Of a stretch of 8,572 bases of DNA, positions 3,074-8,572 are shown in pieces (the stretch's first letter is position 1; each line of letters begins with the position of its first letter). The notes under the pieces are model-generated. The model was not told where the DNA came from. It worked only from the letters and a program-made list of their open reading frames with translations, and did not search any database. The position numbers and the translations under genes were made by a program. Origin of the DNA: Chloroflexota bacterium (GTDB taxonomy: Bacteria > Chloroflexota > Chloroflexia > QHBQ01 > JADMIH01); contig JADMIH010000164.1 of assembly GCA_015478675.1 (NCBI GenBank), forward strand, positions 1 to 8,572, read 5' to 3'.

Positions 3074-3105
3074 AAACAAAAGGGCCTGGGAGAAGCCCCA
3101 AACCC
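3074..3105 (-). terminator. Intrinsic terminator or attenuator upstream of rplK
   Basis: On the minus strand GGGTTTGGGG, the loop CTTC and TCCCAGGCCC form a 10-bp helix (seven Watson-Crick pairs and three G-U pairs), followed directly by TTTTGTTTG. It lies about 157 bases past the nusG stop and 96 bases before the rplK start. No convincing promoter was found between it and rplK, so some transcripts must read through it. Confidence 0.75.
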
Positions 3106-3110
3106 ACCTT

Positions 3111-3234
3111 GCAGCACGGAGGCTGCATTCTCCAAAATGGCGTTTGAGGTATCGGCGGAAGCGTAAGAGCTTCCTCCCTCCGCTATTCACTTATTCAGGC
3201 AGCCTTGCTGTTCGGCAACGACTGCTATACCTCA
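3111..3234 (-). ncRNA. Structured 5' leader of rplK-rplA, candidate attenuator RNA
   Basis: In the minus-strand RNA, UGAGGUAU (3227-3234) pairs perfectly with AUACCUCA (3145-3152), closing a junction of about 108 nt. Inside are GGAAGC/GCUUCC and a GCGG/CCGC extension at 3153-3182, and a GCAG/CUGC arm with an inner GCAA/UUGC hairpin around 3199-3225. A further GCAGC/GCUGC hairpin sits at 3111-3126. The segment CCUCAAACGCC (3139-3149) overlaps the closing helix and can also pair with all ten bases of the terminator 5' arm at 3096-3105. These two folds exclude each other, as in a transcription attenuator. The ligand is unknown; L1 or L11 would be natural candidates. Structure drawn by eye, with no energy calculation. 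Confidence 0.5.
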
Positions 3235-3262
3235 CAAGCTGACTGCCACAAATTATCTGCTC

Positions 3263-3937
3263 TCAGACCAGCTTTTCTACCTGCAAAAAGTCAAGCTCCA
3301 CAGGGGTTTCGCGCCCGAAGAAGGATACGCGAACCCGTACCTTACCCTTCTCCTGGTTGATGGTTTCGATTATGCCCTCGAAATCGGCGAATGGGCCATC
3401 TATGATCTTTACCGCCTGCCCAGGCTGCAACATCACTTTGAACTTGGTGGGCGCTGCGGTCTGCATTTGCTTGAGTATAGCGTCGGCTTCTTGCGGGGGG
3501 AGGGCGGTTGGCTCGTTTCCTATACCCACGAAGCCGGTTACACCAGGGGTGTTACGCACTACGTACCACGATTCTTCGTCCATGACCATCTCGACCAGTA
3601 CATAGCCGGGAAATATTTTGCGCTGTACAGGGTGGCGCTGGCCTCCCTTTATCTCTATTTCTTCTACTGTGGGCACTTCCACGCGGAAGATCCGCTCGCT
3701 CATGTCGAGGGTGAGGATGCGGTGCTCAAGGTTTTTTTTGACCTTATTTTCGTAGCCGGAATAGGTATGTATGATGTACCAGTGTCGGCCATCATCGAAT
3801 GTGTCATCCGCCGTGCCGGGTGTGGTTTCGGTGTCGGCCGCGCCGTTGCTCGCACTGTTCAGCACGGTATCAGGTGTGACTGTTTCTTCCATGTCGGGCT
3901 GGGTATCTGTTACGTCGGTAAAGGTTTGAGGGTCCAT
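3263..3937 (-). CDS. nusG: Transcription termination/antitermination factor NusG
   Basis: A 224-residue NusG. The NGN domain begins at RHWYIIHTYSGYENKVKKNL (residues 51-70), with the RNA polymerase-binding core through KIFPGYVLVEM (107-117). The C-terminal KOW domain contains GPFADFEGIIETINQEKGKVRV (181-202) and can contact Rho or ribosomal protein S10. It binds the beta' clamp helices, affecting elongation, pausing and termination. The first 50 residues are an added, probably disordered, acidic tail rich in Thr and Asp, with no Lys or Arg. Most NusG proteins start only a few residues before the WY motif. The ATG at 3937 is the only start upstream of this tail; GGAG lies about 14 bases before it, which is a weak ribosome binding site. 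It lies 41 bases downstream of secE. Confidence 0.96.
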   Translation of the reverse strand: MDPQTFTDVTDTQPDMEETVTPDTVLNSASNGAADTETTPGTADDTFDDGRHWYIIHTYSGYENKVKKNLEHRILTLDMSERIFRVEVPTVEEIEIKGGQRHPVQRKIFPGYVLVEMVMDEESWYVVRNTPGVTGFVGIGNEPTALPPQEADAILKQMQTAAPTKFKVMLQPGQAVKIIDGPFADFEGIIETINQEKGKVRVRVSFFGRETPVELDFLQVEKLV

Positions 3938-4577: not shown

Positions 4578-4730
4578 GACGCGGTGTAAGAGTTCAGAGT
4601 TGGGGTGGAGCATTCTTGAAGGAGTCGCTGTGAAGGCGTATCCTTACGTACCCTCACCCCATGCCCTTCTCCCATGGAGGGTGGAGGGGCTAGCCGCCTC
4701 CACCTCAAGTCTGAACGGTTACGACGCGAT
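4578..4730. mobile_element. MITE copy A, IS66-like ends, with 8-bp target duplication
   Basis: The element spans 4586-4722 (137 bp). Its ends are inverted repeats beginning GTAA: the left end and the reverse complement of the right end match at 21 of the first 25 bases, sharing GTTCAGA and GGTGGAG. It is flanked by GACGCGGT (4578-4585) and GACGCGAT (4723-4730), an 8-bp duplication with one difference. GTAA ends and an 8-bp duplication are typical of IS66-family elements. There is no transposase, so it is a non-autonomous element. Its first 60 bases are about 80% like copy B. It lies between rpmG and the terminator of that transcript, so it is probably transcribed. Confidence 0.75.
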
Positions 4731-6786: not shown

Positions 6787-6799
6787 GCAGATTTTGGGC

Positions 6800-6986
6800 G
6801 TAAATGTTCAGAGTTGAGGTGGAGCAATCTGCAAGGAGAAGCTGTGGAGGCGTACCCTCACCTACCCTTTCGCACCCTCACCCCATGCTCCTCTCCCACG
6901 AGGGGAGAGGGGGTTTGGGGGTGAGGGCGGGTGCACCCGCGCGGATACCCCAAGAAGATTGCTCCACCCCTACTCTGAACGCTTAC
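6800..6986. mobile_element. MITE copy B, IS66-like ends
   Basis: This is a 187-bp element with inverted ends beginning GTAA: left end and reverse-complemented right end match at 27 of 31 bases, including GTTCAGAGT and GGTGGAGCAATCT. It is homologous to copy A and in the same orientation, but has a longer interior with a G/C-rich hairpin (6875-6927) and a perfect 14-bp palindrome GCGGGTGCACCCGC (6927-6940). No target duplication is visible (TTTTGGGC left, GATGCACC right). An IS4-family element begins 11 bases past its right end. No transposase. Confidence 0.75.
6875..6927. repeat. G/C-rich imperfect hairpin inside MITE B
   Basis: CCCTCACCCC near the left matches GGGGTGAGGG at the right, and CTCTCCC matches GGGAGAG nearer the centre, around the loop ACGA. 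Copy A holds a shorter, decayed version around 4652-4690. This type of CCCTCACCCC...GGGGTGAGGG palindrome is common as a dispersed repeat in bacterial genomes. Confidence 0.6.
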
Positions 6987-7008
6987 GATGCACCCGTCTG
7001 ACATCCAG

Positions 7009-7821
7009 TCATAACTGGTCCACTATGTCTTTGCCGAGGAGAGCGGCCACACCGGGAGGAATGGAGCCAGTGGCAGCCTTGTGCCGGCGAAGAATAGCCT
7101 CGGTAACCATGTAGTCCAGCACACGTTGCAAGCCCCACAGCAGTATCTTCTTGCCGGGTTTGCGCCCTTTGTGCGGCTCGAACCCTCCCAGCTTAGCCAG
7201 AAGTTCCACGTCTACCCACTCCCACTCTCCATCTATCTCATACAGGAACCCTGCGGCCACCCAGCCCAGTGCCACCAGCGTCCTCACTGCTTCCAAGTCC
7301 AATACCTGCACCTCTCCCCAACCTACGCATGTTTTCAGGAACTGGAAGGCTTCCTCCACACTCCATCGCTGACGATACATCTGAAAGAGGCGTGCTGCCT
7401 GAGCAGAGGTGTTGCATGTCCAATCAATCAGCAAGTACCACGACTCCATGCGGCTGTCCAGCACCTCGACCTTCAACAGCCACATTGCCTGGGTGACTTT
7501 CTCATCTTCACCTTTCCTCGGTCCCACTCGGCGCACGTCCGGCTCATAGCTCACCCTGATCGGACAACTGCTGAGTTGCACCGTCACCGATTGGCGCTTC
7601 TCGTATCGCTGCCCCTTCAGCCGTACCACCATACTGGCTTGTACCCTGCCTTGAGCACGCAGGTGAAGTTCGGCTTCCCGAAGATGGCCCCCCAGCCAGT
7701 GGTTGGACAAGCTCTTGTACTGTACAAGCCTCTCTAAGGACTCCCACCGAAATAAAGTGACCGAGTAACCGAGATGTACTGGGCTAGCGATGAGTAGAAT
7801 TTCATCATTCTCGCAGAAGCT
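7009..7821 (-). pseudogene. IS4-family transposase, C-terminal part (frameshifted)
   Basis: This is the downstream half of the transposase. The open frame runs from 7821 to the TGA at 7009; the first usable start codon in it is a TTG at 7710 (233 codons from there), but the homologous protein clearly begins further up. It contains the IS4 signature Y-x2-R-x3-E-x6-K in YRQRWSVEEAFQFLK, whose Glu is the third catalytic residue, followed by a hydrophobic segment (VRTLVALGWVAAGFLYE) and a basic C-terminus. The stop codon lies inside the left inverted repeat. It is one frame away (+1) from the upstream half, with an overlap window of about 14 bases at 7808-7821. Probably inactive unless the frame is bypassed. 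Confidence 0.85.
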
Positions 7822-8374
7822 TTACTGTTTTCTGGTCAACTTGTTTCGGCTCGGACCCTAAGTGATGCGCTCGACACAGCAAGTGTTGTTCTTGCTCCCA
7901 CACTGTACGCCACACCGCCACATCATCAAAGCCACTGTCCATTACCCATGTGACGGGGTGCTCATCTTGAATGGGAGAGAGGGCTGTGCCTGCCTGGGTG
8001 AGGGCAGTCTGCACTTCGTGTGACTCGGAGAGGTGGTCCTGTTCTTTGCTTGAGAAGAGGCGGTGGTACAGCAAAGCCCGATGGTGGGGAGTGTCCGCCA
8101 GCACATTCAAGGTGCGGTAGCCCTTCACCGTTGTGCCTTGCAGGCTGCCTACTCGCATGAGGTCCTGCATTTCTTTAGCATGAGGTTTGCGCAGGTCCGA
8201 CCCGTCCAGCACCAGCCATATCTCAGTGCCGCATGGTGTCTGCCTGAGGGAGGCAACTCCTCGCTCGGCAAGGCTTCCAACCAGCCGGCAGGCGAGAGAA
8301 GTGCCTCCTACTTGCGAACGACGGGTGCTCTCGCCACTGGCAAAGCGCAGCACCCTCTGTGCTCCGTCACGCAC
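7805..8374 (-). pseudogene. IS4-family transposase, N-terminal part (frameshifted)
   Basis: This is the upstream half of the transposase, 189 codons from a GTG at 8374. The same frame stays open back to 8455 without another standard start, so the true N-terminus is uncertain. It holds the first catalytic Asp in LVLDGSD (residue 57) and the second in VMDSGFDD (residue 146). It stops at TGA (7805-7807) just after KTVKLLRE, where the protein should continue in the +1 frame as ENDEILLIASPVHLGYS. Together the two halves would make a protein of about 455 residues or more, normal for IS4 transposases. A one-base indel is the simplest explanation. Confidence 0.85.
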
Positions 8375-8499
8375 TTCCGACAGGAGAGGAGCTACAGCAG
8401 CTATCCTGGAGCAGATCAGGCTGCCTGCCCCCAGTATGCCGCATGTTGCTTGATTTTAGCCTACCCCTTACCTCCTTTTCAGTTGTGACTGGATGTCAG

Positions 8500-8572
8500 G
8501 GGAATGCTTCTTTAGCCGATGGTATTTACGCACAAATGACGATCAAGAAGCATATTGCAAAGAGTATAGCTG
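8500..8572. other. Non-coding flank beyond the IS element
   Basis: Seventy-three bases outside the right inverted repeat. No gene, tRNA or repeat is recognisable, and the bases do not duplicate those on the other side of the element. Confidence 0.5.

Follow-up and report, generated by a model that had tools for sequence, protein, structure and literature searches.

A candidate L1-responsive transcription attenuator in the nusG-rplK spacer of a Chloroflexota bacterium

Our analysis suggests that the nusG-rplK spacer of a Chloroflexota bacterium acts as an autogenous transcription attenuator that controls the rplK-rplA operon in response to L1, a reading to which we assign a probability of about 55%. 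L1 is a widespread autogenous repressor. The operon lies on the minus strand of the window, the whole stretch of 8,572 nucleotides that was analysed; the leader features described below are on that strand and their coordinates are given in the direction of transcription. Four features were read from the sequence: the L1-type site, its resemblance to 23S rRNA, the unusual distance between it and rplK, and the terminator that intervenes.

According to our model, RNA polymerase would reach the leader either by continuing out of the nusG transcription unit or by starting at a weak promoter that lies at the end of nusG. When there is little free L1, nucleotides 3149-3135 would pair with 3109-3096 while the terminator's 3′ arm has yet to emerge, and transcription would read through into rplK-rplA. 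In contrast, L1 in excess over 23S rRNA would bind a 23S mimic at 3180-3146, thereby locking the sequence CCUC in the outer helix of the site. With CCUC locked the antiterminator would not form, the terminator (3105-3082) would fold and transcription would stop.

Results

The rplK-rplA locus and its long leader

The genes on the minus strand of the window are arranged in the order tuf, rpmG, tRNA-Trp, secE, nusG (3937-3263), rplK (2977-2552), which encodes L11 and has a TTG start codon, and rplA (2541-1807), which encodes L1 and begins 10 nt after the rplK stop codon. The L1 protein is an ordinary L1 (PF00687) that is close to solved L1 chains. Its best matches among 84,980 species genomes, with about 60-65% identity, came from Thermomicrobiales, Chloroflexia and other Chloroflexota. 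The closest NusG in the genomes searched was 69% identical to that of the window, and the NusG proteins P0001-P0055, which are protein sequences, were 70-97% identical to it. A search of viral contigs for DNA of the window's close relatives found none, and a second draw of genomes from the phylum under a stricter limit, which began with the same genomes, contributed no closer relative.

The genes rplJ and rplL do not follow rplA in the window because a convergent gene of the GT87 family (268-1626) lies there. On the other side of the operon, the rpmG-tuf-tRNA stretch is flanked by direct repeats that are imperfect, one of 72 nt (82%) and another of 51 nt (78%); they lie at 4583-4689 and 6797-6913, 2.2 kb apart. 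An IS-like element (6981-8516) is bounded by 37-nt inverted repeats (78%; 6981-7017 and 8480-8516) and contains a piece of a DDE transposase (7009-7710; PF01609, barely above the cut-off) as well as an ORF with no Pfam match (7805-8374). The transposase of this element seems to be split.

We found that the nusG-rplK spacer of the window is 285 nt long, whereas the median was 86 nt among 177 operons in which the spacer was measured. Six of the 177, the window included, had a spacer of at least 285 nt. The folding energies of the spacer were unremarkable (z of -0.24 and -1.31). Sequence reading identified a Shine-Dalgarno (SD)-like AGGAGG for rplK at 2990-2985, far from the L1-type site. A leader peptide taken from the list of open reading frames was dropped for want of a convincing SD sequence.

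An L1-type site in the leader

A descriptor and a covariance model both identified an L1 (uL1)-type site at 3180-3146, inside the rplK-rplA operon and before rplK. The site consists of two helices separated by an asymmetric internal loop, with GA facing about 7 nt. Its outer helix pairs GAGG (3180-3177) with CCUC (3149-3146), its inner helix pairs GGAAGC (3174-3169) with GCUUCC (3162-3157), and GA (3176-3175) lies opposite the 3′ internal loop GCCGAUA (3156-3150). In the fold predicted with the site held, GCG (3183-3181) may also pair with CGC (3142-3140), giving an extended L1 fold that spans 3183-3140.

The descriptor had the form xyGG-GA-GG(helix)-loop-(helix)CC, then usually 7 nt, then CCy′x′, and required the outer helix together with four or more inner pairs. 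It matched the window once when both strands were searched, and 21 of 5000 shuffled versions of the window's spacer contained it. Across distinct spacers it matched 37 of 191, the window included, whereas 20 rounds of shuffling gave 0.40 matches on average and never more than 2.

The covariance model, R1, was built from an alignment (A2) of 23 relatives' sites from which the window was left out. These were 23 of the 36 linear descriptor matches outside the window; the sites left out had a 5-nt loop (L019, L041, L057, L087, L092 and L099), a 6-nt loop (L078) or longer hairpins (L195 and L205), or were near copies (L074, L075, L141 and L210). The first alignment, A1, which had 17 sites, mixed internal-loop lengths, and the model was not built from it. 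With filters off, R1 scored the window site at 29.7 bits (E 1e-5), whereas the next best match reached 12.4 bits. At the second position of the outer helix, 20 of the 23 model sites have a U-A pair and the other three an A-U pair, which is also the pair in the window. Pairing was present in 98.5% of the cells of A2, with 25 two-sided changes versus 5.8 in shuffles, but these counts are biased upward because the descriptor itself asks for pairing. Thus, the identity of the site rests instead on the enrichment over shuffles and on the match in the window. When R1 was run on ten loci it found three Ktedonobacterial sites weakly (17.6-19.3 bits; 5-nt loop) and did not find a 23S arm; on whole genomes, with strict filters and a threshold of E 0.05, it gave matches in 94 of 400. 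From these data we conclude that the element at 3180-3146 is an L1 mRNA site, an assignment that is solid by sequence and in which binding is predicted, and that L1 is the probable ligand of the leader.

L1 binds helices 76-78 of 23S rRNA (PMC10931766, section 3.1), and the L1 sites of rplK-rplA mRNAs are irregular stem-loops with an internal bulge that resemble the 23S site and occur before rplK, rplA or both (PMC10931766). For comparison with the window we collected 23S loci. A first pattern gave no matches in 14 genomes; the Rfam LSU model, used instead, succeeded in four of seven genomes, and an anchor recovered the L1 arm in two of four 23S loci. The stretch compared, which we take to lie in the L1-binding arm, reads GGUGG-GA-GCCGG...CCGGU-GAAAUA-CCAC in the 23S rRNA of locus L163, and the 23S rRNA of L164 has GGUGGGAGCCGG and GUGAAAUACCAC in common with it. 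Comparison by eye revealed that the mRNA element and the 23S arm are built from the same parts, arranged in the same order, and GAUACC of the window resembles AAUACC of 23S rRNA.

Position of L1-type sites in related operons

A survey of relatives' operons was carried out on 339 records. After 11 records without L11, 30 with too short an upstream sequence and 51 duplicates had been dropped, 247 operons remained, the window included. An L1-type site, linear or permuted, was present before rplK and/or rplA in 163 of these, and the descriptor found no site in 84. The site stood before each gene in 61 operons, before only rplA in 81 and before only rplK in 21; thus, a site restricted to rplK is not peculiar to the window. 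Three loci (L202, L215 and L227) resemble the window in combining an rplK-only site with a very short rplK-rplA gap. Neither R1 nor the descriptor found a second L1 site before rplA in the window, where there is no room for one because the gap between the two genes is 10 nt.

The relatives' spacers often contain a conserved short element, located right before the rplK SD sequence. All of the linear rplK sites of 55 relatives end 10-43 nt before the start codon, and all 142 linear rplA sites end 9-55 nt upstream of rplA. These short distances suit blocking of ribosome entry, that is, translational repression, and L1 control of rplK-rplA has been described as translational (PMC10931766, section 3.1). 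Conceivably, L1 bound at 3180-3146 would likewise repress translation, or would speed mRNA decay, at a distance, in which case the terminator would be incidental. That explanation has in its favor both the described mode of L1 action and the location of the relatives' sites next to start codons. However, the site in the window is not close to the ribosome binding site. It ends 168 nt before rplK, whereas no such distance exceeds 55 nt among the relatives surveyed, and a terminator sits in between, such that we consider action at a distance improbable.

A strict terminator between an L1-type site and its gene was found only in the window among the 247 operons. The leaders of L087 and L208 each contain a linear rplK site and a loose terminator-like hairpin, but the hairpin is not between the site and the gene because the site, at 15-21 nt from rplK, is too close.

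The survey also contained a circularly permuted rplK site, GUGA-CCUC...GAGG-GA-helix, in which a loop closes the outer helix whereas the inner helix is open. This form occurs in Chloroflexales-type loci, for example L006, L007, L009, L011-L014, L016, L017, L020, L127, L131, L134, L136, L138, L139 and L145. It was present in 18 of 191 spacers, versus 0.85 in shuffles, and in 26 of the 247 operons of the final survey, 22 of which also have a normal rplA site. When four relatives' loci were searched with Rfam 15, no L1-type family was reported.

The terminator and the promoters around it

The preliminary description of this DNA had placed a 10-bp intrinsic terminator with a U tract upstream of rplK. 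A strict search recovered both elements: a hairpin of ten pairs, GGGUUUGGGG-CUUC-UCCCAGGCCC, at 3105-3082 with a predicted energy of -15.0 kcal/mol, and the U tract UUUUGUUU at 3081-3074. The terminator therefore precedes the first gene of the operon, as it would in an attenuator. A looser search found terminators in eight of the 247 rplK leaders, whereas strict terminators were found in two, the window and L027. L027, the sole other locus with a strict terminator-like hairpin in the nusG-rplK spacer, has it 35 nt before rplK, and its linear L1-type site stands before rplA.

Promoters were scored by their match to the consensus. A weak promoter-like sequence, TAGAAA-16-GATAAT (9 of 12 positions), lies at the end of nusG (3279-3252) and is a possible start of the leader. 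A 12 of 12 match is located farther upstream at 4571-4542, before tRNA-Trp, secE and nusG. This match directly precedes a 9-bp terminator-like hairpin with TTTTCTTTTC (4525-4504), and both the match and the hairpin are upstream of tRNA-Trp-secE-nusG. The best match between the terminator and rplK was CCGGCA/TATAAC at 3071-3041, with 8 of 12 positions and a 19-nt spacing. This result agrees with the earlier claim that no good promoter lies there, and leaves room for a downstream promoter.

Such a promoter is central to another explanation, in which the terminator is the end of the tRNA-Trp-secE-nusG unit, rplK-rplA transcription starts after it, and the L1 site was stranded by an insertion, persisting as a relic or acting only on read-through transcripts. 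Terminators between transcription units are ordinary, the TATAAC at 3046-3041 (5 of 6) could serve as a -10 box, and in several settings the terminator is computed to form even when L1 is absent, as described below. We nevertheless consider this arrangement rather unlikely, given the poor score and spacing of the best promoter candidate, the intact state of the L1 site and the rarity of strict terminators in the surveyed leaders. Moreover, the 3′ strand of the L1 site fits the terminator arm better than do those of 160 other sites.

Predicted competition between the L1-type site, the antiterminator and the terminator

A central feature of the attenuation model is an antiterminator that shares sequence with both the L1-type site and the terminator. 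The preliminary description had noted that CCUCAAACGCC at 3149-3139 can pair with the 5′ arm of the terminator; we found this pairing and found that it continues through the next four bases. The 5′ strand of the antiterminator is CCUCAAACGCCAUUU (3149-3135, with G3141 bulged), which pairs better with the terminator arm than any other stretch of the leader, and its 3′ strand (3109-3096) holds the entire 5′ arm (3105-3096). The structure comprises 8 bp, a bulged G and 6 bp, engages all ten bases of the terminator arm and the four bases before them, and contains one G-U pair, within the first eight pairs. Predicted folds place a small hairpin, UGCAGC/GCUGCA (3127-3110), inside the antiterminator. 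The computed energy of the antiterminator pairing is -16.1 kcal/mol, versus -15.0 kcal/mol for the terminator hairpin. The 3′ strand of the L1 site is also the start of the antiterminator strand (shared nucleotides 3149-3146), and the extended L1 fold overlaps it at 3149-3140. In the sequence and the computed folds, the predicted ligand site thus overlaps the antiterminator and the antiterminator overlaps the terminator, which is the arrangement of an attenuator.

Several controls were used to gauge this pairing. Pairing as good or better was obtained with 19 of 5000 shuffled arms and in 75 of 5000 shuffles of the bases that follow CCUC. When the equivalent strands of 160 other L1 sites were tried, none paired as well with the terminator arm, and only 0.9% of the 8557 minus-strand 15-mers of the window did so. 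In a blunter control, in which the whole leader upstream of the terminator was shuffled, equal or stronger competition arose in 12-20% of 400 shuffles.

We also computed folds of growing transcripts with 5′ ends at 3262, 3250 and 3245. For these transcripts the junction helix (see below) or the L1 site led until 3111, and the antiterminator reached 0.99-1.00 at 3096-3091, where only the 5′ arm of the terminator is out. When the L1 site was held, the antiterminator was excluded and the terminator reached 0.97-1.00; in these folds, an L1 site that holds CCUC prevents formation of the antiterminator, resulting in formation of the terminator. Without L1, the terminator still reached 0.49-0.85 at 3075 at equilibrium, and thus read-through would depend on the antiterminator folding first. 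When the 5′ end was placed at 3400, the junction helix reached 0.93 versus 0.03 for the antiterminator at 3091, and the terminator reached 0.95 at 3075 without L1. Mutual exclusion and the energies are computed results; L1 binding, regulated termination and its direction are inferred. The proposed attenuation step is a good inference from one sequence.

The junction helix

The preliminary description had assigned the role of ligand-binding fold to a different structure, a junction closed by UGAGGUAU (3234-3227) and AUACCUCA (3152-3145), which was thought to decide between antiterminator and terminator in a leader of an unrecognised type. The perfect 8-bp pairing is present, it excludes the antiterminator, and it is populated in several of the computed folds. 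However, when 3262-3140 was shuffled 200 times by dinucleotides, 8% of the shuffles contained an 8-bp Watson-Crick helix, and the junction helix alone is therefore not beyond chance. A search of the whole window with Rfam 15 at the gathering score gave three tRNA matches, none in the leader, and the three matches obtained in 3300-2940 at E values up to 10 were all at chance level. Furthermore, the sequence enclosed by the junction is the L1-type site, and the 3′ strand of the junction helix overlaps that site such that the two compete for the same strand. We thus rejected the junction as the ligand site and main element, and a decision made by this fold is very improbable. The helix may at most be a basal anti-antiterminator, and probably is not a designed part. 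What stands from the preliminary description is a transcription-level leader for rplK-rplA, which is still the best fit and is strengthened by an L1-type site that lies upstream of the terminator and shares its 3′ strand with the antiterminator. Its sensing element, the site at 3180-3146 that had been overlooked, is of a known kind.

Discussion

The organization proposed for the window resembles that of the B. subtilis rplJL leader, in which the L10(L12)4 site functions as an anti-antiterminator and is followed by an antiterminator and a terminator, each structure excluding the next, a mechanism that is proven for L10 (PMC4538822). The order of the elements and the logic of exclusion, which is computed here, are the same in the window. 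In contrast, the window has an L1-type ligand site, controls the rplK-rplA operon, belongs to Chloroflexota and is known here from its sequence. The L20 attenuator of B. subtilis infC-rpmI-rplT also exemplifies autogenous transcription attenuation by a ribosomal protein, but with another protein and another RNA (PMC4538822).

The site in the window shares with the known L1 sites of rplK-rplA mRNA the operon, the irregular stem-loop, the asymmetric loop and the mimicry of 23S rRNA. Unlike those sites, for which a review describes control at the level of translation (PMC10931766), it is 168 nt from the start codon and is followed by a terminator. In streptococci, the rplK-rplA leader is described as having a fold similar to that in E. 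coli, and the authors suggest translational feedback by L1; the operon is the same, whereas a terminator switch does not appear in the available portion of that description (PMC6431027). A survey of ribosomal leaders includes conditional terminators among the known mechanisms, with rplK and rplA not named in the part available (PMC7247131). Defined 3′ ends have been reported in the 5′ UTRs of translation-regulated ribosomal protein operons of E. coli, where the accessible text likewise does not name rplK or rplA (PMC7815308). Our search of the literature, in which subscription papers were thinly covered, found no report of L1-dependent transcription attenuation.

We consider the odds even that a 23S-mimic L1 site has been displaced from the ribosome binding site and coupled to an antiterminator plus a terminator, such that one transcriptional switch for both genes would replace the translational operators that are usual in the phylum. 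The survey of relatives' operons yields a covariance model for L1 sites across Chloroflexota. If the attenuation model is true, the level at which a ribosomal protein operon is controlled can change while the protein-RNA contact stays.
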